From an uncultured Veillonella sp. (GTDB taxonomy: Bacteria > Bacillota_C > Negativicutes > Veillonellales > Veillonellaceae): a stretch of 13,671 nt of DNA. Shown in pieces: positions 1,610 through 13,671 of this stretch. The position numbers were made by a program, and so were the translations under genes. The first letter of the stretch is position 1, and each line of letters opens with the position of its first letter. The notes beneath the pieces were generated by a model. The model did not search any database. It was not told where the DNA came from and saw nothing but the letters and a program-made list of their open reading frames with translations. The stretch lies in contig CAAFRK010000161.1 in assembly GCA_900765235.1 (NCBI GenBank), positions 1 through 13,671 of the forward strand, written 5' to 3'.

Positions 1610-3169
1610 CTATTCTCTGGTTATATCATTATGCTCATAAAATTTAATATAACAAACCAAAATCCCTACAAGAATTGGATATGCTAATAAAAATTCATTA
1701 CTCATAAAGCATGCAATTTGCCCCAAAAATGCCACTAACAGGTAGACTAATATAGGGTTATTAATATACTTCTTAATCTTATATGTTCTATATAAAATAT
1801 ATAAAATTGGAGTAATAAATAAGACTTCTCCTATTAACCCAAACCATGCCAATATGGCTGCGAATTCATTAAGTACTGGATATTCAAATGCTAGAAAGCC
1901 CTTTTGTAATACGTCTTCTGTCCAACGTTTAACTTCGCCACTATCTTTAGCAAAATCAGGGAATTTATCAACCATATAGCTTGAGTGCAATCCTCTACCA
2001 ACACCAAATGCTAGATGATCTAGACCAACGTTAAACATAGCTACTGTATTACCAAATCTAGCTGAATTAGATCTAGAACTAGTATTGCTGACTGACTTAA
2101 CATTACTATCAATATACTTATCTAGAGCCTTTTCTACGGATATAGCCTTAGGTGCTTCCTTGGTAGTATTCGTTTGAGAAATACTAGCCTTAATTATAGG
2201 GCTTACTACGGAATCACCAACAATAGCAAAAGAATAACTTAGAACACTAAGTCCAATTGTAAATAGACATAGTTTCCACCAAGATTTATATCTAAATATT
2301 AGACTTAATACAATAAACGCAACTAGTTCGAATAGATAAACAACAACACCTGTTCGAGCCTTAGTTAAGAAAATCATGACAACTAAGAGAAATGCTAATA
2401 TAATATCAAGTTTATTCTTAGAATTTACATAATGAATACCTAATAATGGTGCCAAAAATACAGCAATCATACTAAAATAGGATGGTTCTAACGCAAGGCT
2501 TCTAAGTTGACCTGGCCATAATTCCGGAGGCCACCACCCACTTTGTACAACAGGATCATATAAGCTATTATTAATAGTTACTAATATACTAGCCAAGTAA
2601 TCTGAACCACTCCATAGCCAAGAAACCTCTATAATGGAGTAAGCTATACATAGTATTGTTAATATCCTTGCAGCATTAACAATGGTATCAAGACCTTTTT
2701 TACAATCATCTTTATATAGATTAAAAATGATTAAGAATAGCCCAATTAATGGAAATATAAAGTTTCTAAACAGATACCAAACTAAAGACACCATTAACTT
2801 TACTTGTAGAATAAATTCATTACCTACAAACGAAGGAAATAGCGCATATAGTTTTTGGACAACGGATGTATTGATTAAATATGTGTAAATAACAGTATCA
2901 TAAAAAGGAAAAGAAAATACCCCTAAAATGGTACAAAAAACAATCCAAGTAACAGATATTGTAAAATATGGTTTAAAGGGAATCTCTGTCTTCTTGTTCC
3001 ATATGCTATATACAATAAATAGTAAAATGGAAAAGAACAAAAATACCATCGACAGATTATTTCCCATGGAAAACAAGGTATACCGATCTGGTATCCGCAT
3101 CAGTGGTAATGAAATTATCATTGCACAAAGCAATAGCTCTTGAATTTTATAATATACTGTATTAATCAT
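1610..3169 (-). CDS. wzy: O-antigen polymerase (Wzy-like)
   Basis: This is a 519-residue multi-pass inner-membrane protein, predicted to join polysaccharide repeat units on the outer face of the membrane. Membrane spans are visible from about residue 10, interrupted by a large hydrophilic loop at about 315-430. Loop signatures typical of the Wzy/O-antigen ligase superfamily are RSLALEPSYF (223-232), an Arg-containing SRSNSARFGN (365-374) and GVGRGLHSS (389-397). FEYPVLNEFAAILAWFGLIG then leads into the last spans. Wzy proteins vary too much to predict the linkage. It lies 34 nt after the wzx-like gene, which fits a Wzx/Wzy pathway. The start at 3169 has GAGG about 12 nt upstream, a rather long spacing. 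A ligase of the same superfamily cannot be fully excluded, but its place in the operon favours polymerase. Confidence 0.85.
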   Translation of the reverse strand: MINTVYYKIQELLLCAMIISLPLMRIPDRYTLFSMGNNLSMVFLFFSILLFIVYSIWNKKTEIPFKPYFTISVTWIVFCTILGVFSFPFYDTVIYTYLINTSVVQKLYALFPSFVGNEFILQVKLMVSLVWYLFRNFIFPLIGLFLIIFNLYKDDCKKGLDTIVNAARILTILCIAYSIIEVSWLWSGSDYLASILVTINNSLYDPVVQSGWWPPELWPGQLRSLALEPSYFSMIAVFLAPLLGIHYVNSKNKLDIILAFLLVVMIFLTKARTGVVVYLFELVAFIVLSLIFRYKSWWKLCLFTIGLSVLSYSFAIVGDSVVSPIIKASISQTNTTKEAPKAISVEKALDKYIDSNVKSVSNTSSRSNSARFGNTVAMFNVGLDHLAFGVGRGLHSSYMVDKFPDFAKDSGEVKRWTEDVLQKGFLAFEYPVLNEFAAILAWFGLIGEVLFITPILYILYRTYKIKKYINNPILVYLLVAFLGQIACFMSNEFLLAYPILVGILVCYIKFYEHNDITRE

Positions 3170-3203: not shown

Positions 3204-4445
3204 TTACAAGAGTCGCTTCCATAATAAGCCTCCCATAATAATCATAATTAGAAATTCTGTTAGTAACATTGTCATTGCTACACCTTCTGCACCCCACATA
3301 TAACACAACGGGAATATAGATAGCAAACTAAAGAGTGCTGCTAATACTAAAGTCCGGCTATAAGCACTATTCATATTGAGTGGTAGCATAGTTTCTTCAC
3401 CAAACACAGTACTAATAGCAACAGCTAGTGGAACAAATGACAAAATTCGTAATACATCAACAGTTAAATCATAATCAGCTCCGAATAATAGCTTAACTAT
3501 AGTATCCGAAAAGAAAAATAGTGATGTACAACCAACAAGACCTACAACTAGATATAAGAGCAATTGCTTTTTAATGAACTGTAACCCTTTTGGAATATCA
3601 TCCTTCATCATCTTACTTATAAATGGATATATGGCGTCACTGACAGCATATATACCTCTACGAACACATGTAATTAATTTATCAGCAGCACTATAGTAAC
3701 CAACGATAACATTATTCGTAAGCATACCTAATACCACTACATTAGTTGCAGTATATAAGTTAACCGCTAAGGAGGATACGAATATAGACCAGCCTTCTTT
3801 ATAAGAATTAATAATTTCACCTATAGTTGGCCATTTAAACAATCCCGTATAATGTTTTCTTAACCAGACTATTGAAAAAACACCTGCAATTAAAGGCGTG
3901 CAAGCTTGTAAGAATGCAGCGAGTATATAATCATCTGGAGATTTTACAAGTAAAAATATACCAAGCATCGTACAGATACGACCACTCATATTTAATATGG
4001 TAATATACCGCATCTTCTGTATGCCCTGGAAAAACCATACAGGAAATAAAACATTGCCTATAATTCCACAGTACATAACTTGAAATAATAATATATCAAT
4101 CGTGTTCCCTAGGAATATGCGTTGCAAATTATAAATAGCAAAAAATACGGCCGTAACAAATATTAATATACATACTTTTCCATAAAAATATTTGGCAAAT
4201 AGAGATCCTATCTTCTGTTCTTCAGCCTGTGCTATTGCCTTTGGCGCCGTTAAGGAGTACCCAAAATCAACAAAGATTCGAAAATATTCCATAATACCTT
4301 GCATAAATGCAATCATTCCAAAATGCAAAGGTCCTAATACGCGAATTAAATATGGTACCAAAATAAAAGCGAGTACATACTCTAAGGCGCGTAGGGTTAG
4401 TAGAGAAAATATATTCTCTATTAATACGGAGTAACTCTTCCTCAC
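3204..4445 (-). CDS. wzx: Polysaccharide repeat-unit flippase (Wzx-like)
   Basis: This 413-residue membrane protein with about 12 predicted spans belongs to the polysaccharide transporter family in the MOP superfamily (RfbX/Wzx). It would move undecaprenyl-diphosphate-linked repeat units across the inner membrane. The N-terminus is typical: a cationic start, then 'LRALEYVLAFILVPYLIRVLGP' interrupted by 'HFG', followed by a helix with 'FRIFVDFGYSLTAPK'. Conserved charged residues within membrane segments and the second-half repeat 'GYYSAADKL' also fit. The start codon is GTG at 4445, supported by AGAGGA about 8 nt upstream. It is separated from the preceding glycosyltransferase gene by 161 nt containing a hairpin, so its expression may be partly uncoupled. 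Substrate cannot be told from sequence. Confidence 0.88.
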   Translation of the reverse strand: MRKSYSVLIENIFSLLTLRALEYVLAFILVPYLIRVLGPLHFGMIAFMQGIMEYFRIFVDFGYSLTAPKAIAQAEEQKIGSLFAKYFYGKVCILIFVTAVFFAIYNLQRIFLGNTIDILLFQVMYCGIIGNVLFPVWFFQGIQKMRYITILNMSGRICTMLGIFLLVKSPDDYILAAFLQACTPLIAGVFSIVWLRKHYTGLFKWPTIGEIINSYKEGWSIFVSSLAVNLYTATNVVVLGMLTNNVIVGYYSAADKLITCVRRGIYAVSDAIYPFISKMMKDDIPKGLQFIKKQLLLYLVVGLVGCTSLFFFSDTIVKLLFGADYDLTVDVLRILSFVPLAVAISTVFGEETMLPLNMNSAYSRTLVLAALFSLLSIFPLCYMWGAEGVAMTMLLTEFLIMIIMGGLLWKRLL

Positions 4446-4606: not shown

Positions 4607-5560
4607 TCAATAATACAATTTAACCAATACCCTCTTTATATCTTGTTTGCACTTCCACAATGGGTTATGGCTAGTATCAACTGTATGATCTAAGACATAG
4701 TGCTTATATTGAGTGAGTAAATCATTGTACTCTGTCTTACATTTATTAACATGAACTCTACGAGATAATTCCACATAGGAATTTAAAAGATACAATTGCA
4801 GTTCGTTCTTTACACTACTACAGTGATCCATAAGATAATCATTCATATATATATGGGACTCTACGGTATCTGTCATAAAACGTCTACTAAAATTAGCCAT
4901 TATACTACCAGCGCGTTGTACATAATAATAAAGAGGTTCATTTACTGTTACTATAGTATTAGCATTCAAAAATAGCCTGAAAATAGTAAAATTATCCTCT
5001 TGAACTCTCCCCTTTGGAAAACGAACTAATACTGTCCCATTGAATAACTCAGATTTAAAGAGTTTATTCCATACTACATTGAGATCGAATGGTTCCGTTT
5101 TTAATAGATAATATCGTAACATATCCATGCCTGTGAAAGTTCTTGTATCATCTTGAACAGACATAGTATGTATACTAATATCATCATCACCTCTATAGAT
5201 ATAATAATTACAAGAAACCATATCAGCATTGCTACTATTCGCTACAGTAAGCAATCTTTCACACATTGTATTTTCTATAAAATCATCACTATCAACGAAT
5301 AAAATATAGTCTCCTGTAACATGATCTAAACCATAATTACGGGCATCGGAAAGCCCTCCATTTTCTTTATGAAAGACCTTTACACGTTTATCCTTCGCCG
5401 CATAAGAATCTGCAATAGAACCGCTGCGATCGGTTGCCCCATCATCTACTAAAATAATTTCTAAATTTTGATAAGTTTGATTAAGTATTGATTGAATACA
5501 TTTATCAATATACTGTTCAACATTATAAATGGGAACAATAATAGAAAGTAACGGCTCCAT
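4607..5560 (-). CDS. Family 2 glycosyltransferase (GT-A fold)
   Basis: This 317-residue cytoplasmic glycosyltransferase is predicted to add a sugar from a nucleotide-sugar donor to the lipid-linked repeat unit. The N-terminus has the classic GT2 pattern LSIIVPIYNVEQYI (5-18), a VDDGATD nucleotide-binding segment (38-44), ENGGLSDARNYG (66-77) and the metal-binding VDSDD (89-93). A later QEDN (187-190) fits the catalytic acidic position of the family. The C-terminal part (about 220-317) is helical and basic, as often seen in capsule GT2 enzymes that sit at the membrane surface. Donor and linkage are unknown. The start at 5560 follows AAGGA about 9 nt upstream and is 4 nt from the stop of the licD gene, so translation is probably coupled. 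Confidence 0.88.
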   Translation of the reverse strand: MEPLLSIIVPIYNVEQYIDKCIQSILNQTYQNLEIILVDDGATDRSGSIADSYAAKDKRVKVFHKENGGLSDARNYGLDHVTGDYILFVDSDDFIENTMCERLLTVANSSNADMVSCNYYIYRGDDDISIHTMSVQDDTRTFTGMDMLRYYLLKTEPFDLNVVWNKLFKSELFNGTVLVRFPKGRVQEDNFTIFRLFLNANTIVTVNEPLYYYVQRAGSIMANFSRRFMTDTVESHIYMNDYLMDHCSSVKNELQLYLLNSYVELSRRVHVNKCKTEYNDLLTQYKHYVLDHTVDTSHNPLWKCKQDIKRVLVKLYY

Positions 5561-5564
5561 ATAC

Positions 5565-6386
5565 TTAATCCTTTCGATTTATCTTATAGGCAACAATATT
5601 ATGTCCACAGCGTTGGTTCTCAGGAGGCATCTGCATATAGTCATCATACATATTATCTAAATATTGTCTCCAACAGGACATAACAGAAAATAATTGATCT
5701 TCAAACTCAATAGTAGTCATCTTCTCAAAGTCCTGTTTAGGCAATCGTTCCTTTACACCTTCACCCCAGGCAATTACACCAACATGCTCTGATTTAGTAT
5801 AGTCATAAGATTTAGCCAAACGATCCATAATATCGATACAACGTTGTTTACCAAATAAACGACACAATGGAACAATAACTAATTTACCTAAAGCATGAAT
5901 AAGAGATTTCCCCTTAAACAGTTTAGCGCTAGCTAATGTAAGTATTTTCTGATAAAAAATCGATTTATCATAAATCTCTTTCATAATGGACATATCTTCA
6001 CTAAATCCATCAACAGGGAAAATATCTATCCATAAATACTTGCTACGTAATGTATTAGAATATGTATTTTCACAAGGAATATTCTTATTGATGATAGCTG
6101 CATAGGTTGCATCTAAGCTATGATTGATAGGATTTGCGATTAACTCTAATCCATCATGATCATAATGCTCTTTTAACGTTAATAATCGTTCGTAATCAGG
6201 TCTTGGCATGCAAACATCAATATCATCATCCCAAGGTATAAACCCTTTATGTCGAGCTGCACCTATTAATGTGCCATAACATAAACTATATTTTAAATTA
6301 TATTTTTTGCAAAATCTGTCAAAATCCTTGAGAAGATTCAACTCTTCTAGCTGAACCTCTCGTAAAGATAATTGTTGCATACTCAT
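5565..6386 (-). CDS. LicD-family phosphotransferase A
   Basis: This 273-residue protein belongs to the LicD family, whose founding members transfer phosphocholine from CDP-choline onto surface glycans; the fold is nucleotidyltransferase-like. The signature is clear: YGTLIGAARHKGFIPWDDDID (37-57) with the metal-binding Asp cluster at 53-57, WIDIFPVDGF (119-128), and a C-terminal MPPENQR (253-259) typical of the family. The donor is not known to be choline. The genome neighbours suggest a CDP-linked amino-alcohol or polyol instead. The first ATG at 6386 has GGGA close upstream, and an in-frame ATG two codons later is an equally reasonable start. It lies 11 nt after the cytidylyltransferase fusion gene, which probably makes its donor. 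The shared motifs with the second LicD protein of the operon lie around the active site, and the rest diverges. Confidence 0.87.
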   Translation of the reverse strand: MSMQQLSLREVQLEELNLLKDFDRFCKKYNLKYSLCYGTLIGAARHKGFIPWDDDIDVCMPRPDYERLLTLKEHYDHDGLELIANPINHSLDATYAAIINKNIPCENTYSNTLRSKYLWIDIFPVDGFSEDMSIMKEIYDKSIFYQKILTLASAKLFKGKSLIHALGKLVIVPLCRLFGKQRCIDIMDRLAKSYDYTKSEHVGVIAWGEGVKERLPKQDFEKMTTIEFEDQLFSVMSCWRQYLDNMYDDYMQMPPENQRCGHNIVAYKINRKD

Positions 6387-6397
6387 TCAATCCCATA

Positions 6398-7732
6398 CTA
6401 AATAACGGTAACATCTGTATTAGATACAAATTTATTGAGGACGCGTACCTCTTCAATCATATCTTGATGACTCATCAAGAAGCTTTCAGAGTCCTCTCTA
6501 ATACATTTTAAGAACTCAACGATTTCATATCGTAAGCCTTCACCTTCAAACTTATAGAAGTATTTTTGGTTTAAGTTTACATCTTCAAAACGCAATTCAA
6601 AGAATTCTGTTTTCCACCAAGGTGCAGGTACATAGATATATCCTTTAGAACCAGATATAACTAAATCTCCCTCTGCCTTAGCATTAATTGCCACAGTAGC
6701 AGAGGCCATAGCATCATCATAAAGAAAATTAATCTTTGATAAAATATCGATATCATCAACCTTATGACTTATAAAATCAACTCGATTATAATCAAATCCT
6801 AGGAGTTTAAAGATAGCTAATAATGGATAGGATGCTAAGGATAAAATACTACCACCAGCTATTCTAATTTGATTAGCCAAATCTTCTCCCAAAACTTGTG
6901 TAAAATTAGCTTCTACATTAAAGATTTTACCAATTTTTCCACTACGAGCCATGGCAATTAACTTATTAAATGCAGGACTATAAGCTGTTTTCAAGCCTTC
7001 CATCAATACTAAGTTTGAAGATTTCGCTAAGTCCATTAAGCGTAATGCTTCATCAAGATTACTACTAAATGGGAATTCTGTTAATACATGTTTTTTGGCT
7101 TGTAGTGCTTTTTCGATATAAGCACCACGTTTGGATAAAGGCATATTAATATATACTGCATCTACTTTATCTAGCAATTCTTCAGATGAACCAAATTGTT
7201 CTAAATTATTAAATTGATGTGATTTATATATAGTATCAACCGATTCTGCCTCTGTGTACCCACCAATAATATCGATGCCACTAACAAATTTAGACTCATC
7301 CAAAAATCTATCTAATATAATTTCATTACCAATGATACCAAGTCTAATATTCTCAGAATTTCTAATCTGCGTACTTGAAATACCTTGTGTTCTTGGTAAG
7401 TAAACTACTTTGCAATACTCATTTAAATAGTCAAAATAGCCTTCCCAATCAGATCCAACGGTAAATATATCTACATTAAATCGTTTAATATCATCTATTT
7501 TTTGGCCAAAATATTCTTCTACTACAATTTCATCTGCAAAACCTGTAGCACGCACATTATCAATGCGCGTCATTAAAGAATCACGAACATTAAATTTACC
7601 TCTAGATTTATCAAAATAGTCAGACGTAACCCCAACAATTAGGTAGTCACCTAATGCTTTTGCATTCTTTAATAGATTGTAATGTCCCTCATGAAACAAA
7701 TCATATGTTCCATATGTTATCACTTTTACCAT
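6398..7732 (-). CDS. Fusion: TagD-like cytidylyltransferase + Gfo/Idh/MocA oxidoreductase-like domain
   Basis: This 444-residue two-domain protein has an N-terminal domain (1-128) that closely resembles glycerol-3-phosphate cytidylyltransferase (TagD/GCT): VITYGTYDLFHEGH (4-17) carries the HxGH CTP-binding motif, followed by VGSDWEGYFDYL (92-103) and RTQGISSTQIR (114-124). It should attach CMP to a small phosphate such as glycerol phosphate or a relative. Residues 129-444 resemble the Gfo/Idh/MocA NAD(P)-dependent oxidoreductases: a Rossmann start LGIIG (131-135), KKHVLTEFPFSSNLDEA (213-229), MEGLKTAYSPAFNKL (244-258) and GGSILSLASYP (293-303). In the usual family the equivalents read EKP and an Asp-containing D-x-G-x-Y; here they are EFP (219-221) and Ser298, so the normal catalytic Lys and Asp positions are lost. 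The oxidoreductase half may thus be non-catalytic or altered. The gene begins 1 nt after the aminotransferase stop (TAA-T-ATG), implying coupling. Confidence 0.85.
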   Translation of the reverse strand: MVKVITYGTYDLFHEGHYNLLKNAKALGDYLIVGVTSDYFDKSRGKFNVRDSLMTRIDNVRATGFADEIVVEEYFGQKIDDIKRFNVDIFTVGSDWEGYFDYLNEYCKVVYLPRTQGISSTQIRNSENIRLGIIGNEIILDRFLDESKFVSGIDIIGGYTEAESVDTIYKSHQFNNLEQFGSSEELLDKVDAVYINMPLSKRGAYIEKALQAKKHVLTEFPFSSNLDEALRLMDLAKSSNLVLMEGLKTAYSPAFNKLIAMARSGKIGKIFNVEANFTQVLGEDLANQIRIAGGSILSLASYPLLAIFKLLGFDYNRVDFISHKVDDIDILSKINFLYDDAMASATVAINAKAEGDLVISGSKGYIYVPAPWWKTEFFELRFEDVNLNQKYFYKFEGEGLRYEIVEFLKCIREDSESFLMSHQDMIEEVRVLNKFVSNTDVTVI

Positions 7733-7733
7733 A

Positions 7734-8810
7734 TTATTTACCTGTAATCTCTTTAATGACTGATTTCATTGTTTCTACGAGCATTTTATTATCCTCAATG
7801 GTTGTATCGCCAATATGAGCAACGCGTAGAACATAGTCTTCATTAACCCCACCTGTAGGATTTACAAAAATATCGTATTTATCTTTCAAAATTGTAAATA
7901 CCTCTTTAGCAATTGGTTGTTCAAAACGGATAGGCGTAACCGCATTACTGATGCTGAAAGTAGGAAGAGATACCGGTAATTCTTTAATTCTATTTCTGAA
8001 ATCTTTCGCCACACTATCAATACGAGCTAAATAGTTTTCAAAACCTTCCTCTTCAATCAGATGTAATGCTTTATTCATTTCTAAACATACCCCAACAGCA
8101 GGTGTGAATGGTGTTTGACCTCTTGTAAAGTTTTTTACATATTGGTTGAAATCAAAGTAAAGATTCTTAATATGATTATTTTTTACACGTTCTTCATATA
8201 ATCTATCACTAATTACAATAGGGGATATACCTGGTGCAATACAAAGACCTTTTTGGGAACTCAAAATAGTAACATCAATATTATTACCAGCCATATCATA
8301 ATGATCAATTAAGAACGAACTAATGGCATCAATTACCAAGTATGCTTCTTTCTTTTTAGCGAAATTGCTTAATAAATTAATATCATATAACTGTGCGGTC
8401 GAAGTTTCATCAATATTAGCAATAACAAATGTAAATGATTGTTCTTCTACGGCAGCAAAGTGTTTCGCGGTTAACTCCTCACCGTCTTCTAATTTAATCA
8501 CGGTATGAGGTATCTCATGGAGTTCACATAAATCGACGAAACGTTGACCAAAAGTACCACCATTAATAACTAACACATGGTCTGTTTCATTCATACAATT
8601 CATAATAGTAGCTTCTAAAGCACCCGTACCAGAAGCTGTTAAGTAGATGGATTTATAGCTTTCTGGTGCATTCATAAATTTTTTAAGCAGTCTATCTGAA
8701 TCTAACATAACTTCAGAAAATTCTGTTGTTCTAAAATAAGGAACTTGTTGATGTCTTACATCAAGAATTTCCTGTCTCATTTGAGTTGGTCCTACTGTAA
8801 ATAGTTTCAT
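7734..8810 (-). CDS. Class V PLP-dependent aminotransferase (PhnW/alanine-glyoxylate aminotransferase-like)
   Basis: This 358-residue fold-type I PLP enzyme belongs to the class V group containing 2-aminoethylphosphonate-pyruvate and alanine-glyoxylate aminotransferases. Motifs in order: FTVGPTQMR at the N-terminus (4-12), the phosphate-binding ASGTGALEA (59-67), ETST (135-138), the PLP-ring Asp in VIDAIS (159-164, Asp161), the Schiff-base lysine in SSQKGL (184-189, Lys187) and GQTPFTPAVG (231-240). It should interconvert a small aldehyde or keto compound and an amine. Given the cytidylyltransferase and licD neighbours, I infer that it makes the amino group of an alcohol phosphate or phosphonate later activated as a CDP derivative. 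No phosphonate-forming genes are seen. The start at 8810 is chosen over an upstream in-frame ATG at 8837 because GAGGGG lies about 9 nt before it and because the longer form would overlap licD. Confidence 0.85.
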   Translation of the reverse strand: MKLFTVGPTQMRQEILDVRHQQVPYFRTTEFSEVMLDSDRLLKKFMNAPESYKSIYLTASGTGALEATIMNCMNETDHVLVINGGTFGQRFVDLCELHEIPHTVIKLEDGEELTAKHFAAVEEQSFTFVIANIDETSTAQLYDINLLSNFAKKKEAYLVIDAISSFLIDHYDMAGNNIDVTILSSQKGLCIAPGISPIVISDRLYEERVKNNHIKNLYFDFNQYVKNFTRGQTPFTPAVGVCLEMNKALHLIEEEGFENYLARIDSVAKDFRNRIKELPVSLPTFSISNAVTPIRFEQPIAKEVFTILKDKYDIFVNPTGGVNEDYVLRVAHIGDTTIEDNKMLVETMKSVIKEITGK

Positions 8811-8827
8811 AATATAATCCCCTCTTA

Positions 8828-9679
8828 TTATTTCCAATACACTCTATAGTTATGATGCGGTACCTGGCGATCTTTAGGTGGTGCTTCCATATAATTATTG
8901 TACAAATGACTTAAATAGAAATCGCTATCTGTAAGTCCCCAAAACTCAGTATCCTCAAAAGGATATAAACTTCTATTATCAAACAAAGTTTTTTCGTATA
9001 CTTCCCGTTTATTACCACTCGCACAATCGACGAGAACACTTATGTAGTTCGAATTGGAAAATGGATACTGTTGGGCATCTTGATTAATCTTTTTGATTAA
9101 ACTTGTAGTTGGTAAAAAATGCATTAAACTAATAGCACCAAATTTTAAGAATGTACGAACATAACCTTTTAACTTTGCAAAGCTACCTTTAGAGTCTACA
9201 TAACGATTACTGAATGTAAACTTCATAGAAGACCCATGGAATAACAAGTTTAAAAATTGTTGATGTCTAAATATTTTTTGTTGTGCCTGTGTTTCATCCG
9301 GTAACCCATCAATTGGGAAAATATCTATAAATACACCTGCTTTATCAAAATTACGCCATAATGTATTATCAATCATAACCGTTTCTTGATCGAATACCTT
9401 TGCCATTGTATAGGTATAAGTATCATCGTTTTCAATAGAAAACACTTGATATCTTGAGTTATGCTCATTATATGTCTTAATAAAGCGATTATAATCATCC
9501 CGTGGCATCATGATATCAATATCATCATCCCATGGAATAAAACCTTTATGTCTAACGGCTCCCAACATTGTTCCATACGCTAATACATATCGAATATCAT
9601 GTGTATCACAAAAATGTGCCACATCTTTTAAAATATCTAAAGCGACACTCTTAATCTCCGAAAATCCAATTTCTCTCAT
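8828..9679 (-). CDS. LicD-family phosphotransferase B
   Basis: This second LicD-family protein is 283 residues. It carries YGTMLGAVRHKGFIPW (35-50) followed by the metal-binding DDDID (51-55) and MMPRDDYNRF, then FIDIFPIDG (112-120) and a C-terminal APPKDRQVPHH (266-276). It probably transfers a phospho-substituent from a CDP donor to the glycan. The start at 9679 is preferred because GGAGGA lies 9 nt upstream; the longer frame from 9703 has no ribosome site. It sits 17 nt before the aminotransferase gene. It shares the active-site motifs with the other LicD protein but differs widely elsewhere, so the two may place the substituent on different acceptors or use different donors. Choline as donor cannot be excluded, but no choline uptake or licA-type gene is in the window. 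Confidence 0.87.
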   Translation of the reverse strand: MREIGFSEIKSVALDILKDVAHFCDTHDIRYVLAYGTMLGAVRHKGFIPWDDDIDIMMPRDDYNRFIKTYNEHNSRYQVFSIENDDTYTYTMAKVFDQETVMIDNTLWRNFDKAGVFIDIFPIDGLPDETQAQQKIFRHQQFLNLLFHGSSMKFTFSNRYVDSKGSFAKLKGYVRTFLKFGAISLMHFLPTTSLIKKINQDAQQYPFSNSNYISVLVDCASGNKREVYEKTLFDNRSLYPFEDTEFWGLTDSDFYLSHLYNNYMEAPPKDRQVPHHNYRVYWK

Positions 9680-9712
9680 CAAAAAAATTCCTCCATAATA
9701 CAAATAGGTCTA

Positions 9713-10471
9713 TTATTTAAAGAATTTTCTTTTCAAGAATAATCCACCTTTTTTAATCCAGTTTTGTGGCTCCATAAATGATACATTTTGTTCCTTATAG
9801 TCAATGTTATTGGCTTCAAGCCATACGTCGAGCAAGATTTCACTTACGAAACCATAGATGCGCGCTTCGTATGTATCATAATCGGAAATATCGACGCGAT
9901 GTTCAATCTCTTCCAAGATGGAGAACATCCATTCACAGTATTGATCAAAGAGGTCGCGTCGCATGACGAACATATTGAACATATGCGCCCAAGTGCGATT
10001 ACAAACCTTTGTGAAAGCTGCGCTATATTCAGGATATTTCTCAGCGATGATTTGCTCTGCCGCATCAAGGCCATCGCTATGATGCGCATTATTATAGTGA
10101 GAACGGTTAGATTCAATATAATATTTGCGTTTATCCGCCACGACTACAGGATACTTTGAAAGTAGTTGTTCCCATTCCGCTCCTGTAAGAATTTGGTTCT
10201 TTTTATCCTCTACGGAACGCACCTCTTTGCGCGTAAAGTAACGTCTATAATGGACGAGACCGATATAGTCCGCATCAAGGTTTTTCCAAGCCCAATAAAG
10301 GCCTGTCAATTCGCAGTAATTTGCATTTTTTGAGGAAATATTATCCCCTGTATGATCGCCAGTATAACCAATATCAGCCTTGCCCTCTCTACCTACATGG
10401 ATTGGCATGTATACGGAGTCCTCTGGCATCCAATATTGCTTATGTGTAGCTACTAAAATCTTAATATTCAC
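9713..10471 (-). CDS. DUF4422 capsular polysaccharide glycosyltransferase, probable galactofuranosyltransferase
   Basis: This 252-residue protein belongs to the DUF4422 family found in many capsule and O-antigen loci. Visible family features are an N-terminal KILVATHKQYWMP (4-16), NYCELTGLYWAWKN (51-64) and YIGLVHYRRYF (69-79). Members of this family have been linked to galactofuranose transfer, and the neighbouring glf gene would supply UDP-galactofuranose; the substrate assignment here is therefore inference. It starts with GTG at 10471, supported by AGGAGAG about 8 nt upstream. It lacks membrane spans and has a basic C-terminus (LFLKRKFFK) that could touch the membrane. Base composition looks visibly richer in G+C than the licD-wzy genes that follow, similar to glf and wbaP. 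Confidence 0.82.
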   Translation of the reverse strand: MNIKILVATHKQYWMPEDSVYMPIHVGREGKADIGYTGDHTGDNISSKNANYCELTGLYWAWKNLDADYIGLVHYRRYFTRKEVRSVEDKKNQILTGAEWEQLLSKYPVVVADKRKYYIESNRSHYNNAHHSDGLDAAEQIIAEKYPEYSAAFTKVCNRTWAHMFNMFVMRRDLFDQYCEWMFSILEEIEHRVDISDYDTYEARIYGFVSEILLDVWLEANNIDYKEQNVSFMEPQNWIKKGGLFLKRKFFK

Positions 10472-10529: not shown

Positions 10530-11627
10530 TTATGCTAATTCCTTTTCTACTAATGCCAAGGCACTAGCAATAACCTTATCCATATCGTAATATTTATATT
10601 CCCCTAAACGACCACCAAAGATAACATTGGAAATCGTTTCAGCCTTTTTAACATATTTTGCGTAAAGGTCTAAATTCTTTACATCGTTCACTGGATAATA
10701 GGCTTCTTCGCCGATTTTCCAGTCTTTTGGATATTCTTTTGTTACATATGTAACAGGTTGTGTACCAAATTCAAAATGCTTATGTTCAATAATGCGAGTA
10801 TACGGAATGTCCCCTTCTGTATAGTTCACAACGGCAACACCTTGATGATTTTCCTCTTCAAAACATTCAGTTTCAAAGTGAAGACCACGATATTCCAATA
10901 CACCTTCAGAGTAATCAAAATACTCATCAATAGGACCTGTATAGATAATTGTATCTGCCAAGGCTTCATATTCATCGCGATGTTTGAGGAAGTCTACACC
11001 TAAACGAACTTCAATACCCTCTAACATGCGTTCAATCATCTTGGTATAACCGCCCATAGGAATGCCTTGAAAACGGTCATTAAAGTAATTGTTATCATAG
11101 GTATAACGAACTGGTAAACGCTTAATAATGAAAGCTGGCAATTCTGTACATTTGCGGCCCCATTGTTTTTCCGTATACCCTTTGATGAGCTTTTCGTAAA
11201 TATCTGTACCTACAAGGCTAATAGCTTGCTCTTCTAGGTTCTTAGGTTCACTTGTAATAGCAGCCCGCTGTTTCGTAATGATATCCTGTGCCTCTTTTGG
11301 AGTACGAATATTCCACATTTTAGAGAATGTATTCATATTAAACGGCAAATTGTACATTTCACCTTTATAATTTGCTACAGGGCTATTTACATAGTGATTG
11401 AACTCAGCAAATTGATTAACATAATCCCACACATGCTTCAAAGATGTATGGAAAATATGGGCACCATACACGTGAATGTTAATATCATCTTTGCTTTCAC
11501 AATACAAATTACCTGCTATATGATTACGGCGATCGATAACAAGTACAGATTTACCACGCTTATGCGCCTCATGGGCAAATACAGCACCAAATGGGCCTGC
11601 CCCAACTACTAAATAATCGTATTTCAT
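10530..11627 (-). CDS. glf: UDP-galactopyranose mutase
   Basis: This 365-residue flavoenzyme converts UDP-galactopyranose to UDP-galactofuranose in the cytoplasm. The length is normal for bacterial Glf. The FAD-binding start is VVGAGPFGAVFA (7-18) with VIDRRNHIAGN (30-40). Family motifs follow: HVYGAHIFHT (52-61), YNLPFNMNTF (92-101), YTEKQWGRKC (151-160), the Arg-rich VRYTYDNNYFNDRFQGIPMGGY region at about 173-194, and a C-terminal FGGRLGEYKYYDMD (337-350). No key segment appears missing. The ATG overlaps the wbaP stop by one base (TAATG), with AAGGGG about 8 nt upstream, so the two are probably translationally coupled. Its presence indicates a galactofuranose-containing glycan. Confidence 0.97.
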   Translation of the reverse strand: MKYDYLVVGAGPFGAVFAHEAHKRGKSVLVIDRRNHIAGNLYCESKDDINIHVYGAHIFHTSLKHVWDYVNQFAEFNHYVNSPVANYKGEMYNLPFNMNTFSKMWNIRTPKEAQDIITKQRAAITSEPKNLEEQAISLVGTDIYEKLIKGYTEKQWGRKCTELPAFIIKRLPVRYTYDNNYFNDRFQGIPMGGYTKMIERMLEGIEVRLGVDFLKHRDEYEALADTIIYTGPIDEYFDYSEGVLEYRGLHFETECFEEENHQGVAVVNYTEGDIPYTRIIEHKHFEFGTQPVTYVTKEYPKDWKIGEEAYYPVNDVKNLDLYAKYVKKAETISNVIFGGRLGEYKYYDMDKVIASALALVEKELA

Positions 11628-13063
11628 TAATAGGCCCCTTTCGATTTAACGACAGCCAACACAGTTTTCAAAAGATATACAATATCGATCCATACGGACC
11701 AGTTATGAACATACCAAGAGTCCATTAATACACGCTCTTCATAGGTAGTATCGCTACGACCGCTAACTTGCCATACACCGGTAATTCCTGGTGGTACAAG
11801 GTAAAAATCGTTGATATAGTCACCGTATTTCACGATTTCATCACGCACGATAGGACGAGGACCTACGAGGCTCATATCACCAACGAGAACATTCCACAAT
11901 TGTGGCAATTCATCAAGACTCGTTTTGCGAAGGAATTTACCAATACGAGTAACACGAGGATCATCTTTCAATTTGAAATCTCGTTCCCATTCCTCACGGG
12001 CTGCAGGGTTTTCTTTCAAATATACCTCTAATGCCTCTTGTGCATTCGGCACCATGGAGCGGAATTTATAGCATGGGAACTCTTTACCACCTTGGCCAAC
12101 GCGCTTATGACCAAATACGATAGGCCCTGGAGAATCTAGATAAATCAATACAGCTACAATGGCTAAAATTGGCAAAATCAAGAGGCCCCCACATACAGTA
12201 GCTACAATATCAAATATGCGCTTCATAATGCGGTTAGACTTGCGAGCCAAGTTATTTTGTACGCGCAATACAACGGCTTGCTCTTCCATCATGCCACGAG
12301 CCGTAATATTACTTGTGGGCAAACCAAATAATTCAGGCACAAAGGCTACTCGTTTTACCAATAATTGCAATCGATTGATCAAAGATACTAACTTTTTAGG
12401 TTCTAACCCTGGTGCACAAATAAGAACTGTTTGTACACCTGTATCTTTGATAACATGTTCAACATCGGAAAAAGCACCTAAACATGGATATTCTTTAGCA
12501 ATAGTAGAGGATTTGGGATTATCATCTACATAACCAATAATCTTGTACGTAGCAATCGGCATACGATCTAAGGATTTCTTTACGAGCTCTGCTGTTTTAC
12601 CTGCACCAACTAATAAAACTGGTATCGTTAAGTATCCGGCCTTAGAAAGAATCTTGCCTACAATAAAACGGGAGCTAAAGATAAAGATCAACATGAATAA
12701 GTAAGCAAAGACAACAAATAATCGGGATACATCGTTGATTACGTGCCCTGTATACATGAGCACAATAGATACAACTACGCCAATCGTGATACTGCGGAAT
12801 AGGTTTTTCATAGTATCCCAATAAGGGGATACTACTGAGTATGCATTATTGAGAAGTAATATGGCTAAAAATACGAAAGGTATAATGCCATATACATAGA
12901 TTTCATCTACCTTAAAATGTGGACTAACCGGTAAAAATGGCAAGTTTAACCGCAAATAATAAGCTGCTAATGTCCCTAAAACAATAGAAACATAATCGGC
13001 TATAAGCACTATTATTTTACTAACAAGCAACTTGTTGTGATTATTATATCCATAACTATTCAT
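11627..13063 (-). CDS. wbaP: Undecaprenyl-phosphate galactose phosphotransferase (WbaP-type initiating enzyme)
   Basis: This polyprenyl-phosphate hexose-1-phosphate transferase starts the repeat unit on undecaprenyl phosphate at the inner membrane. With the start at 13063 it has 478 residues, close to the well-known WbaP length. Four or so N-terminal membrane spans (about 10-135) are followed by a Rossmann-like CoA-binding/NAD-like domain ([11 protein letters not shown], 149-159) and the re-entrant helix (about 283-310). The catalytic domain carries [18 protein letters not shown] (320-337), the Asp-Glu pair in [10 protein letters not shown] (382-391), [10 protein letters not shown] (395-404) and [13 protein letters not shown] (424-436). 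Galactose is the likely sugar but glucose cannot be excluded. The frame stays open upstream to 13144, but that start is TTG, has no ribosome site and would run through a terminator hairpin; the chosen ATG has GGGG about 7 nt upstream. Confidence 0.9.
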
Positions 13064-13081
13064 ACTAATACCCCAAACTAT

Positions 13082-13125
13082 AAAAAAAGGTTGTTTTCTC
13101 AATACAATTTTTAAGAAAACAACCT
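13082..13125 (-). terminator. Intrinsic terminator in the wbaP leader (putative attenuator)
   Basis: On the - strand a perfect 12-bp stem (13125-13114 AGGTTGTTTTCT with 13099-13088 AGAAAACAACCT) closes a 14-nt loop and is followed by an uninterrupted run of seven T (13088-13082, the first in the stem). It ends only 18 nt before the wbaP ATG, leaving no room for an ordinary promoter. Any transcript for the operon that starts upstream must pass it, which points to attenuation or processive antitermination. Confidence 0.82.
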
Positions 13126-13163
13126 CTAAACCATACGAATACAATGTACCAATATTTACTTAT

Positions 13164-13294: not shown

Positions 13295-13671
13295 CTAAAT
13301 AACCTTGTGATTCTCATTTATTTTCAATTGAATCATGATGCCCATAACAATCCAAAACATGCGAATGCCCGATGAATTTCCCCACGTATAATCTATAGAT
13401 CCAAACAAGAACAAATAGCTAATAAAGCCTAACATTATTGATAAATCATAAGGGTTTCTTGATTTAACATAATGTATCAAAGATTTACAGAATATAAAGA
13501 ATGAAAATCCTAAGAATCCAATGAGCCCTAATATGCCAGATTCAGAGGCTATTTGCAATAGATTATTATGAGAATGGCCTAGATCTTGAGTTTCTTGTTT
13601 TAATTTATAGTGCTCTCGATATGTTTTTTGCCATAATCCAGGACCAACACCTGTTACAGGATGATCCATAA
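13295..13671 (-). CDS. O-antigen ligase/polymerase-family protein, C-terminal part (truncated by window edge)
   Basis: The last 124 or so residues of a membrane protein of the O-antigen ligase (WaaL)/Wzy_C superfamily are visible. HPVTGVGPGLWQ followed by a HSHNNLLQIASESGILGLIG block is the characteristic periplasmic loop and following span, with the conserved His-x-His-Asn-Asn-Leu. At least three further membrane segments follow. The ATG at 13669 is probably internal, because the motif normally lies well inside a protein of about 400 residues and the frame has no stop up to the window edge. The stop at 13295 is 231 nt before the wbaP start, so the gene probably belongs to a preceding transcription unit. 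It could be the lipid A-core ligase or a polymerase for another glycan. Confidence 0.85.
   Translation of the reverse strand, partial: MDHPVTGVGPGLWQKTYREHYKLKQETQDLGHSHNNLLQIASESGILGLIGFLGFSFFIFCKSLIHYVKSRNPYDLSIMLGFISYLFLFGSIDYTWGNSSGIRMFWIVMGIMIQLKINENHKVI

Follow-up and report, generated by a model that had tools for sequence, protein, structure and literature searches.

What does a four-gene cassette in a glycan locus of an uncultured Veillonella sp. make? The cassette occupies positions 5,565 to 9,679 of contig CAAFRK010000161.1 (assembly GCA_900765235.1), a stretch of 13,671 nucleotides (nt) that was analyzed as a whole and is called the window here, and it encodes a class V aminotransferase, a fusion protein with a cytidylyltransferase domain and two LicD-family transferases. 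The best explanation overall, to which we give a probability of roughly 70%, is that these genes supply an amino-alcohol activated with cytidine diphosphate (CDP) that is hung on a surface polysaccharide, with serinol phosphate as the favoured molecule. The firmest part of this explanation is the likely pathway logic, well backed by comparison with other loci, of amination followed by activation with cytidine triphosphate (CTP) and transfer as a phosphodiester. Serinol phosphate as the specific molecule stands at even odds, slightly better than before CDP-glycerol-type transferases were found at related loci.

The four open reading frames (ORFs) are all on the minus strand and are transcribed in the order LicD-2 (8828..9679; ORF 8828-9703, ATG at 9679), class V aminotransferase (7734..8810; ORF 7734-8837, likely ATG at 8810), cytidylyltransferase fusion and LicD-1 (5565..6386). 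The likely start of the aminotransferase is the methionine at which 14 of 17 aligned homologues also begin. Given the ATG starts at 9679 and 8810, the intergenic gaps are 17, 1 and 11 nt, and the ORFs, Pfam matches and motifs confirm the contiguity that a preliminary description of this DNA had reported. LicD-1 and LicD-2 match Pfam LicD (E = 3.6e-41 and 2.2e-48) and score 142 and 166 bits against PF04991, where the gathering cut-off of 22.6 places both in the family, and the aminotransferase matches Aminotran_5 (E = 3.1e-16). The fusion consists of a TagD-like cytidylyltransferase domain (residues 1-128, 7349..7732; CTP_transf_like, E = 7.7e-17) and a Gfo/Idh/MocA oxidoreductase domain (residues 129-444, 6398..7348; GFO_IDH_MocA, E = 7.9e-12; GFO_IDH_MocA_C3, E = 1.5e-6). 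The sequence motifs are HxGH and RTQGISST in the cytidylyltransferase, SSQKG in the aminotransferase and an intact WDDDID in both LicDs; intact motifs in all four enzymes and operon-like spacing count for the pathway.

In the proposed pathway, the aminotransferase would aminate a phosphorylated carbonyl, most likely dihydroxyacetone phosphate (DHAP), to give serinol (2-amino-1,3-propanediol) phosphate. The TagD-like domain present in the fusion would take this presumed substrate with CTP to CDP-serinol, and one or both LicDs would move serinol phosphate from CDP onto a sugar as a phosphodiester. The fused Gfo/Idh domain probably still binds a small molecule, with residue 279 tuned to ammonium versus hydroxyl. 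The final product would be a phosphate ester on a Wzx/Wzy-type surface polysaccharide and not a phosphonate.

The preliminary description had seen a cytidylyltransferase fusion; the fusion is real, and the partner that was missed, a complete Gfo/Idh/MocA oxidoreductase fold, is its most informative part. The TagD-like half, of the glycerol-3-phosphate type, matches the solved TagD-type proteins 2b7l (E = 2e-33) and 1coz (E = 1e-32); against TIGR01518 (glycerol-3-phosphate cytidylyltransferase) it scores 117.9 bits, below the cut-off of 165.4. The motif residues H14, H17, R44, K46, R114 and S119 are invariant in all 168 fusion loci of the survey described below, and from the HxGH and RTxGISST motifs this half is predicted to work like a TagD enzyme. 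The fusion thus resembles TagD/GCT of teichoic acid synthesis in its first 128 residues, with the motifs intact, and differs from it in the attached Gfo/Idh/MocA domain, the score under the TIGR01518 cut-off and the predicted amino-alcohol substrate.

The oxidoreductase half (AF2 model, predicted local distance difference test score, pLDDT, 86) aligns in Foldseek with KijD10 at a template modeling score (target) of 0.83-0.85, and other proteins are matched too. The lysine of the EKP motif is missing in the window's fusion, which reads E219-F220-P221; KijD10 K102, for which K102A and K102E mutants figure among the solved structures, aligns with F220 (KijD10 numbers derived with an offset of 18). 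Y302, which aligns with KijD10 Y186, is kept, and residue 279 is a neutral glutamine, Q279. Because the EKP lysine is replaced by F220 and the GxGxxG/A dinucleotide motif by GNEIIL (135-140), it is unlikely that the domain still works as a dehydrogenase, and it is predicted to be redox-dead. A live dehydrogenase was rejected, the lysine and the glycines for nicotinamide adenine dinucleotide being absent although the full fold is present.

We surveyed 121 fusion loci and then 50 hold-out loci for which the prediction had been written beforehand, giving 168 after duplicate removal. Loci L001 and L002 and the duplicates L091, L092 and L155 were left out before the counts; the very divergent L122 was left out of the residue-279 tree below and kept in the counts. 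The first collection drew 80 of at least 582 loci, and we read 43 of the 47 places of the class search and 12 of 13 and 32 of 35 of later sets (the remaining 3 of the 35 were already included). In further draws, 395 Bacteroidia genomes gave only 2 fusion genomes, both already known, and 241 genomes from one family gave 35. A partner received its label when phmmer scored it above 60 bits against the one or two queries used for its class, which makes short-chain dehydrogenase/reductase (SDR) and aminotransferase broad labels. Within two genes of the fusion on the same strand, the 168 loci have a class V aminotransferase (41), a HisC-like aminotransferase (13), an SDR (39), an 846-residue protein (39) or none of these classes (36).

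The EKP lysine follows these neighbours. It is absent in 93/93 loci with an aminotransferase or SDR neighbour and present in 62/75 without one, namely 38/39 with the 846-residue protein and 24/36 of the others. In the hold-out it occurs in 0/34 loci with such a neighbour (one being the duplicate L155) and is kept in 13 of the 16 without; the three misses are L132, where the aminotransferase lies three genes off, L150, which sits at the edge of its contig, and L162, which genuinely breaks the pattern. Ten loci of the first set lack both such a neighbour and the lysine; in four of them an aminotransferase or SDR stands no more than eight genes away, and L043 carries an aminotransferase/SDR fragment at a contig edge.

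The 846-residue family (example L041:6424-8964, with 38 further loci) was examined as a clue to the ancestral product and yielded nothing: the member scanned matches nothing in Pfam or NCBIfam and nothing significantly by sequence in the PDB, and its AF2 model (pLDDT 80) matches epimerases of the UDP-GlcNAc 2-epimerase type and propellers. Thiamine-diphosphate enzymes adjoin fusions without the EKP lysine in L066 (4679-10341, together with an HMGL-like protein) and L122 (6336-9403), which suggests another carbonyl precursor there.

A second position in the oxidoreductase half separates loci with and without an aminotransferase. Aminotransferase loci (aminotransferase within three genes, n = 56) were compared with the rest over 435 alignment columns. 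Residue 279 is Q, S or T in 56/56 aminotransferase loci and K or R in 100/102 classified others (39/40 SDR loci, 61/62 lysine-bearing loci), the two exceptions being the divergent L122 and L015, on a 4.7-kb contig. Ten loci for which no partner was recognized were left out, five neutral (L043, L050, L066, L072, L074) and five basic (L005, L064, L089, L150, L162). The alignment around this column is clean. Taken by themselves, the 119 earlier loci rank column 279 first of 435; among the 49 later ones it is neutral in 17/17 aminotransferase loci and basic in 30/30 others, a split decided on once the pooled scan was done. When the tree is built with these columns left out, 4/4 independent pairs agree and none is opposed in 194 of 200 pairings. 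Within one SDR-type clade, an aminotransferase goes with Q in L023, L030, L034, L040 and L152, and an SDR goes with K in their close relatives L008, L014, L154 and L159. The simplest reading of these sequences is that a positive charge is removed where the ligand gains an ammonium. Since the switch at residue 279 tracks the aminotransferase, the product of the aminotransferase appears tied to the fusion. L089 (7577-8917) belongs to the window's fusion clade and has Y220 and a basic R279; no aminotransferase is seen in the available stretch, and its fusion is predicted to be an alcohol-type enzyme.

This tie bears on the alternative that the aminotransferase serves another sugar of the glycan, with the fusion and the LicDs adding plain glycerol phosphate. 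The fusion has no aminotransferase within two genes in 114/168 loci, and the aminotransferase lies away from the fusion in three of the eight class genomes that have it (8/240), as such an arrangement would allow. The aminotransferase is directly beside the fusion in the other five, adjoins it in 21 of the 23 first-set loci that have it within three genes, and is separated from it by 1 nt in the window. Together with a switch inside the fusion that follows the aminotransferase, this leaves the alternative only a slim chance.

The position of the switch also bears on the order of the steps. The fusion might first make a CDP-ketone such as CDP-dihydroxyacetone, on which the aminotransferase, the SDR or a live Gfo domain would then act. 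A cytidylyltransferase-oxidoreductase fusion with SDR and aminotransferase alternatives suits chemistry on a CDP carrier, and the switch sits in the oxidoreductase domain; among the 30 most different columns, a single one (47) falls in the TagD domain. The chemistry better established for these aminotransferase families is action on free phospho-carbonyls, and we regard the reversed order as improbable.

The logic of amination before CTP activation is kept where individual enzymes are exchanged. In the window's own clade, class V (window, L083-L085) and HisC-like (L086, L087, L088, L090) aminotransferases alternate beside the fusion, and this alternation of two non-homologous enzymes supports the proposed sequence of steps. 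Three HisC-like partners score 229-238 bits against the hisC cut-off of 276.6; the substrate of HisC itself is an acetol phosphate, a compound chemically similar to DHAP. The CTP-using enzyme is exchanged at L173 (6597-10061) and L174 (6674-10175), where aminotransferases 54% and 48% identical to that of the window stand beside a PntC/LicC-like nucleotidyltransferase, a LicD and a methyltransferase domain, which is fused to LicD in L174. The closest solved structure to both nucleotidyltransferases is PntC, the cytidylyltransferase for 2-aminoethylphosphonate (AEP) (E = 3.5e-12 and 1.1e-14). The phosphoenolpyruvate (PEP) mutase gene pepM was searched for and is absent from the L173 and L174 genomes, neither of which is among the fusion-positive genomes of the class; judged by these neighbouring genes, their product is possibly N-methylated and phosphocholine-like, made without choline. 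At L175 a short aminotransferase frame has no recognized partner, and its genome has pepM and, on a different contig, a fusion. The aminating and CTP-using enzymes are therefore both swappable for unrelated ones with the logic kept. These swaps, the residue-279 switch and the nearby CDP-glycerol-type transferases support the order of amination, activation and phosphodiester transfer that the preliminary description had suggested; its statement that the donor cannot be predicted from known pathways is too strong.

What the donor is likely to be is indicated by the genes that recur around it. Fourteen gene clusters lie near at least 3 of the 56 aminotransferase loci: LicD, glycosyltransferases, flippases, UDP-galactopyranose mutase (Glf), DUF4422, an epimerase family, a pyruvyltransferase family, an FrhB/ferredoxin type, two acyltransferase types, CDP-glycerol glycerophosphotransferases and one without a Pfam match. 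Among those with a Pfam match there is no kinase, decarboxylase or carbon-phosphorus enzyme, which points to a common phospho-carbonyl such as DHAP as the precursor. Within six genes of the 56 loci, LicD occurs at 39, a CDP-glycerol glycerophosphotransferase homologue (PF04464) at 18 and either at 47; Pfam confirms PF04464 in 18/18 members at aminotransferase loci, the members to which the check was applied. A glycerol-shaped CDP donor fits these transferases, and probably does so at all PF04464-associated fusion loci, without singling out the amine. The TagD-type domain, the HisC-like substitute and the SDR partner fit DHAP as well, because its reduction gives glycerol phosphate and its amination serinol phosphate. 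Serinol phosphate is known from capsule synthesis in Campylobacter jejuni, where, in the available text of one paper, Cj1437 makes it from dihydroxyacetone, as that paper words it (PMC12409886).

Other substrates of similar size have to be weighed. Glyceraldehyde 3-phosphate would give 1-amino-1-deoxyglycerol 3-phosphate and erythrose 4-phosphate an amino-tetritol phosphate; both are equally common phosphates, the position of the carbonyl is not fixed by sequence, and a TagD-like domain could accept 1-amino-glycerol phosphate. The HisC-like substitutes better match an acetol (ketone) phosphate, given the chemistry of HisC, and we consider these C3-C4 alternatives unlikely, though worth keeping in view.

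Of the three products offered by the preliminary description, serinol phosphate fits best, ethanolamine phosphate is possible and less likely, and aminoethylphosphonate is disfavoured. Ethanolamine phosphate or its N-methylated relatives would arise via glycolaldehyde phosphate or a serine phosphate route. The HisC-like partner family also resembles CobD-type decarboxylases (135 and 138 bits; cut-off 290.6), and the methyltransferase domains in L173 and L174 are what a choline-like product would require. To our knowledge, decarboxylation is not typical of class V aminotransferases, and cells keep no common pool of glycolaldehyde phosphate. The CDP-glycerol-type transferases at 18 of the 56 loci better match a C3 unit, which leaves an ethanolamine product little likelihood.

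The third product would require that the aminotransferase make AEP from phosphonoacetaldehyde formed elsewhere in the genome, that the fusion convert it to the cytidine monophosphate conjugate CMP-AEP and that LicD transfer it. The resemblance to the PhnW/AepZ family that favours this is weak: the window's aminotransferase scores 143.7 bits against TIGR03301 (PhnW/AepZ; cut-off 360.8) and 93.5 against TIGR02326 (PhnW; cut-off 400.8), so that its earlier label as PhnW-like was misleading. Its closest solved structure, 3f0h (E = 3e-97), is named just 'Aminotransferase'. A Pfam scan of 10 window proteins found no recognizable pepM, in agreement with the earlier observation, and the gene is found in 0/28 genomes of the window's family (a set that does not include the assembly of the window itself). 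It is over the cut-off in 6/33 aminotransferase-type genomes, a proportion not enriched relative to the other fusion genomes (3/12; Fisher p = 0.68); of the 27 others, many of them incomplete metagenome-assembled genomes, 3 have a weaker match of 100-108 bits. In L058, L073 and L076, pepM lies on the same contig, about 4 to 10 kb from the cassette. In L076 and L073, AEP transaminases of the Pnt type exceed the TIGR03301 cut-off with 456 and 468 bits and form a clade apart from the cassette aminotransferases, which in the same two regions score 165 and 161 bits. The PEP mutase searches and the AEP-transaminase model scores thus disfavour a phosphonate, which we hold to be very improbable. L058, L073 and L076 have a Pnt (AEP) cluster and a serinol-type cassette within about 10 kb, and one surface locus may carry both decorations. 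The class V aminotransferases of L009, L033, L054 and L147 form a separate, deeper clade.

Some loci have genes that may modify the amine. At L132 (4623-9353), ornithine-cyclodeaminase/Mu-crystallin-type and opine-dehydrogenase-type genes stand between the aminotransferase and the fusion, an arrangement that hints at further alkylation of the amine. A GNAT acetyltransferase that recurs no more than a few genes away from the aminotransferase and fusion (L126:9183-9977, with relatives in L057, L069 and L125) could acylate the new amine. L125 (2834-5614) also encodes, near an aminotransferase-type fusion, a 926-residue protein with cytidylyltransferase-like, PPDK_N and PEP-utiliser domains.

Several points weigh against the proposed pathway. 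As far as the available texts go, C. jejuni uses serinol phosphate as an amide (PMC12409886, PMC13276843); the Cj1437 branch, which like the proposed pathway takes a dihydroxyacetone unit to serinol phosphate for the capsule, links it to glucuronic acid and then dephosphorylates it, with no CDP step described (PMC12409886). By parsimony the EKP lysine changes state twice on one tree and once on the other, so its association with the neighbours is not phylogenetically independent, and lysine loss by itself was dropped as independent evidence of replacement by an SDR or aminotransferase. The residue-279 comparison comprises only 4 independent pairs (3 and one tie in 6 of the 200 pairings; two-sided p = 0.125-0.25), and that this residue lies in the ligand pocket is something we infer from the fold. 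Nine of the 56 aminotransferase loci have neither LicD nor PF04464 within six genes, contig edges included. Members of the PF04464 cluster are no rarer beside other fusion types (13/40 SDR, 19/39 846-residue, 12/33 others) and may therefore use another donor of the same locus. Since L132 has extra enzymes, the molecule may also differ between lineages.

The setting of the cassette is that of a Wzx/Wzy-type glycan locus, with all genes on the minus strand. Upstream lie an initiating sugar-phosphate transferase (11627..13144; Bac_transf, E = 2.5e-66), Glf (10530..11627; GLF, E = 2e-82) and a DUF4422 protein (9713..10471; DUF4422, E = 4.7e-92), and downstream a family 2 glycosyltransferase (4607..5560; Glycos_transf_2, E = 2.5e-41), a Wzx-like flippase (3204..4445; Polysacc_synt, E = 5.9e-45) and a Wzy/WaaL-like polymerase or ligase (1610..3169; Wzy_C, E = 4.3e-8). 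The order Glf, DUF4422, LicD, aminotransferase, fusion, LicD, family 2 glycosyltransferase, Wzx, Wzy is repeated in three more genomes (L083-L085), so the cassette is not a chance array; DUF4422 is close to the fusion in these three and also in L087 and L090. The window's fusion shares 88% identity with a protein named as V. parvula. The fusion is present in 5/28 genomes of the window's family and 47/330 of its class, and the locus is therefore variable, as a serotype-like locus should be. At one end of the window (13295-13669) is a partial membrane protein, weakly like the IctB/O-antigen ligase type and cut by the window end, and downstream of the locus are two small proteins (362-847 and 997-1407) without NCBIfam matches.

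Two known pathways are close in logic. In the available text of Rice et al. 2019 (PMC6697681), the Pnt pathway (PepM, AEP transaminase, PntC) shares with the cassette a transaminase of the same pyridoxal-phosphate class, CTP activation of an amino-alcohol-like phosph(on)ate and decoration of surface glycans. The cassette differs from it in that no pepM was found in the family and its aminotransferase falls outside the AEP-transaminase cut-off. The Lic phosphocholine pathway (LicC, LicD), as that text presents it (PMC6697681), likewise has a CDP-activated amino-alcohol phosphate and a LicD-family transferase, but imports and phosphorylates choline, whereas the cassette appears to make its amino-alcohol by transamination. 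The cytidylyltransferase families differ from both, the cassette enzyme belonging to the TagD family (PF01467) and the PntC/LicC-like ones to PF12804/PF00483. In the open-licence PMC literature, the scope of our search as distinct from subscription papers, no description of this fusion or of CDP-serinol was found. The closest solved relative of the window's aminotransferase, PDB 3f0h, carries no function label beyond 'Aminotransferase'.

Positively charged phospho-amino-alcohols such as phosphocholine and AEP shape host and phage recognition when displayed on surface glycans. Beside the Lic and Pnt routes there may be, as a tentative proposal, a widespread third CDP-amino-alcohol route, in which CDP-serinol would arise via DHAP transamination, the oxidoreductase half of the fusion would have turned into a substrate-reading domain, and residue 279 would have changed repeatedly, being basic for a hydroxyl ligand and neutral for an ammonium ligand, as the neighbouring gene went from reductase to aminotransferase. 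The fusion family would then form a natural series of lysine-bearing domain, SDR partner and aminotransferase partner in which residue 279 appears to report product chemistry, and this residue could let genomes be read for it. If the proposal is true, oral and gut anaerobes of several phyla bear an uncharted amino-alcohol decoration drawn from a central metabolite, without choline uptake or carbon-phosphorus chemistry.

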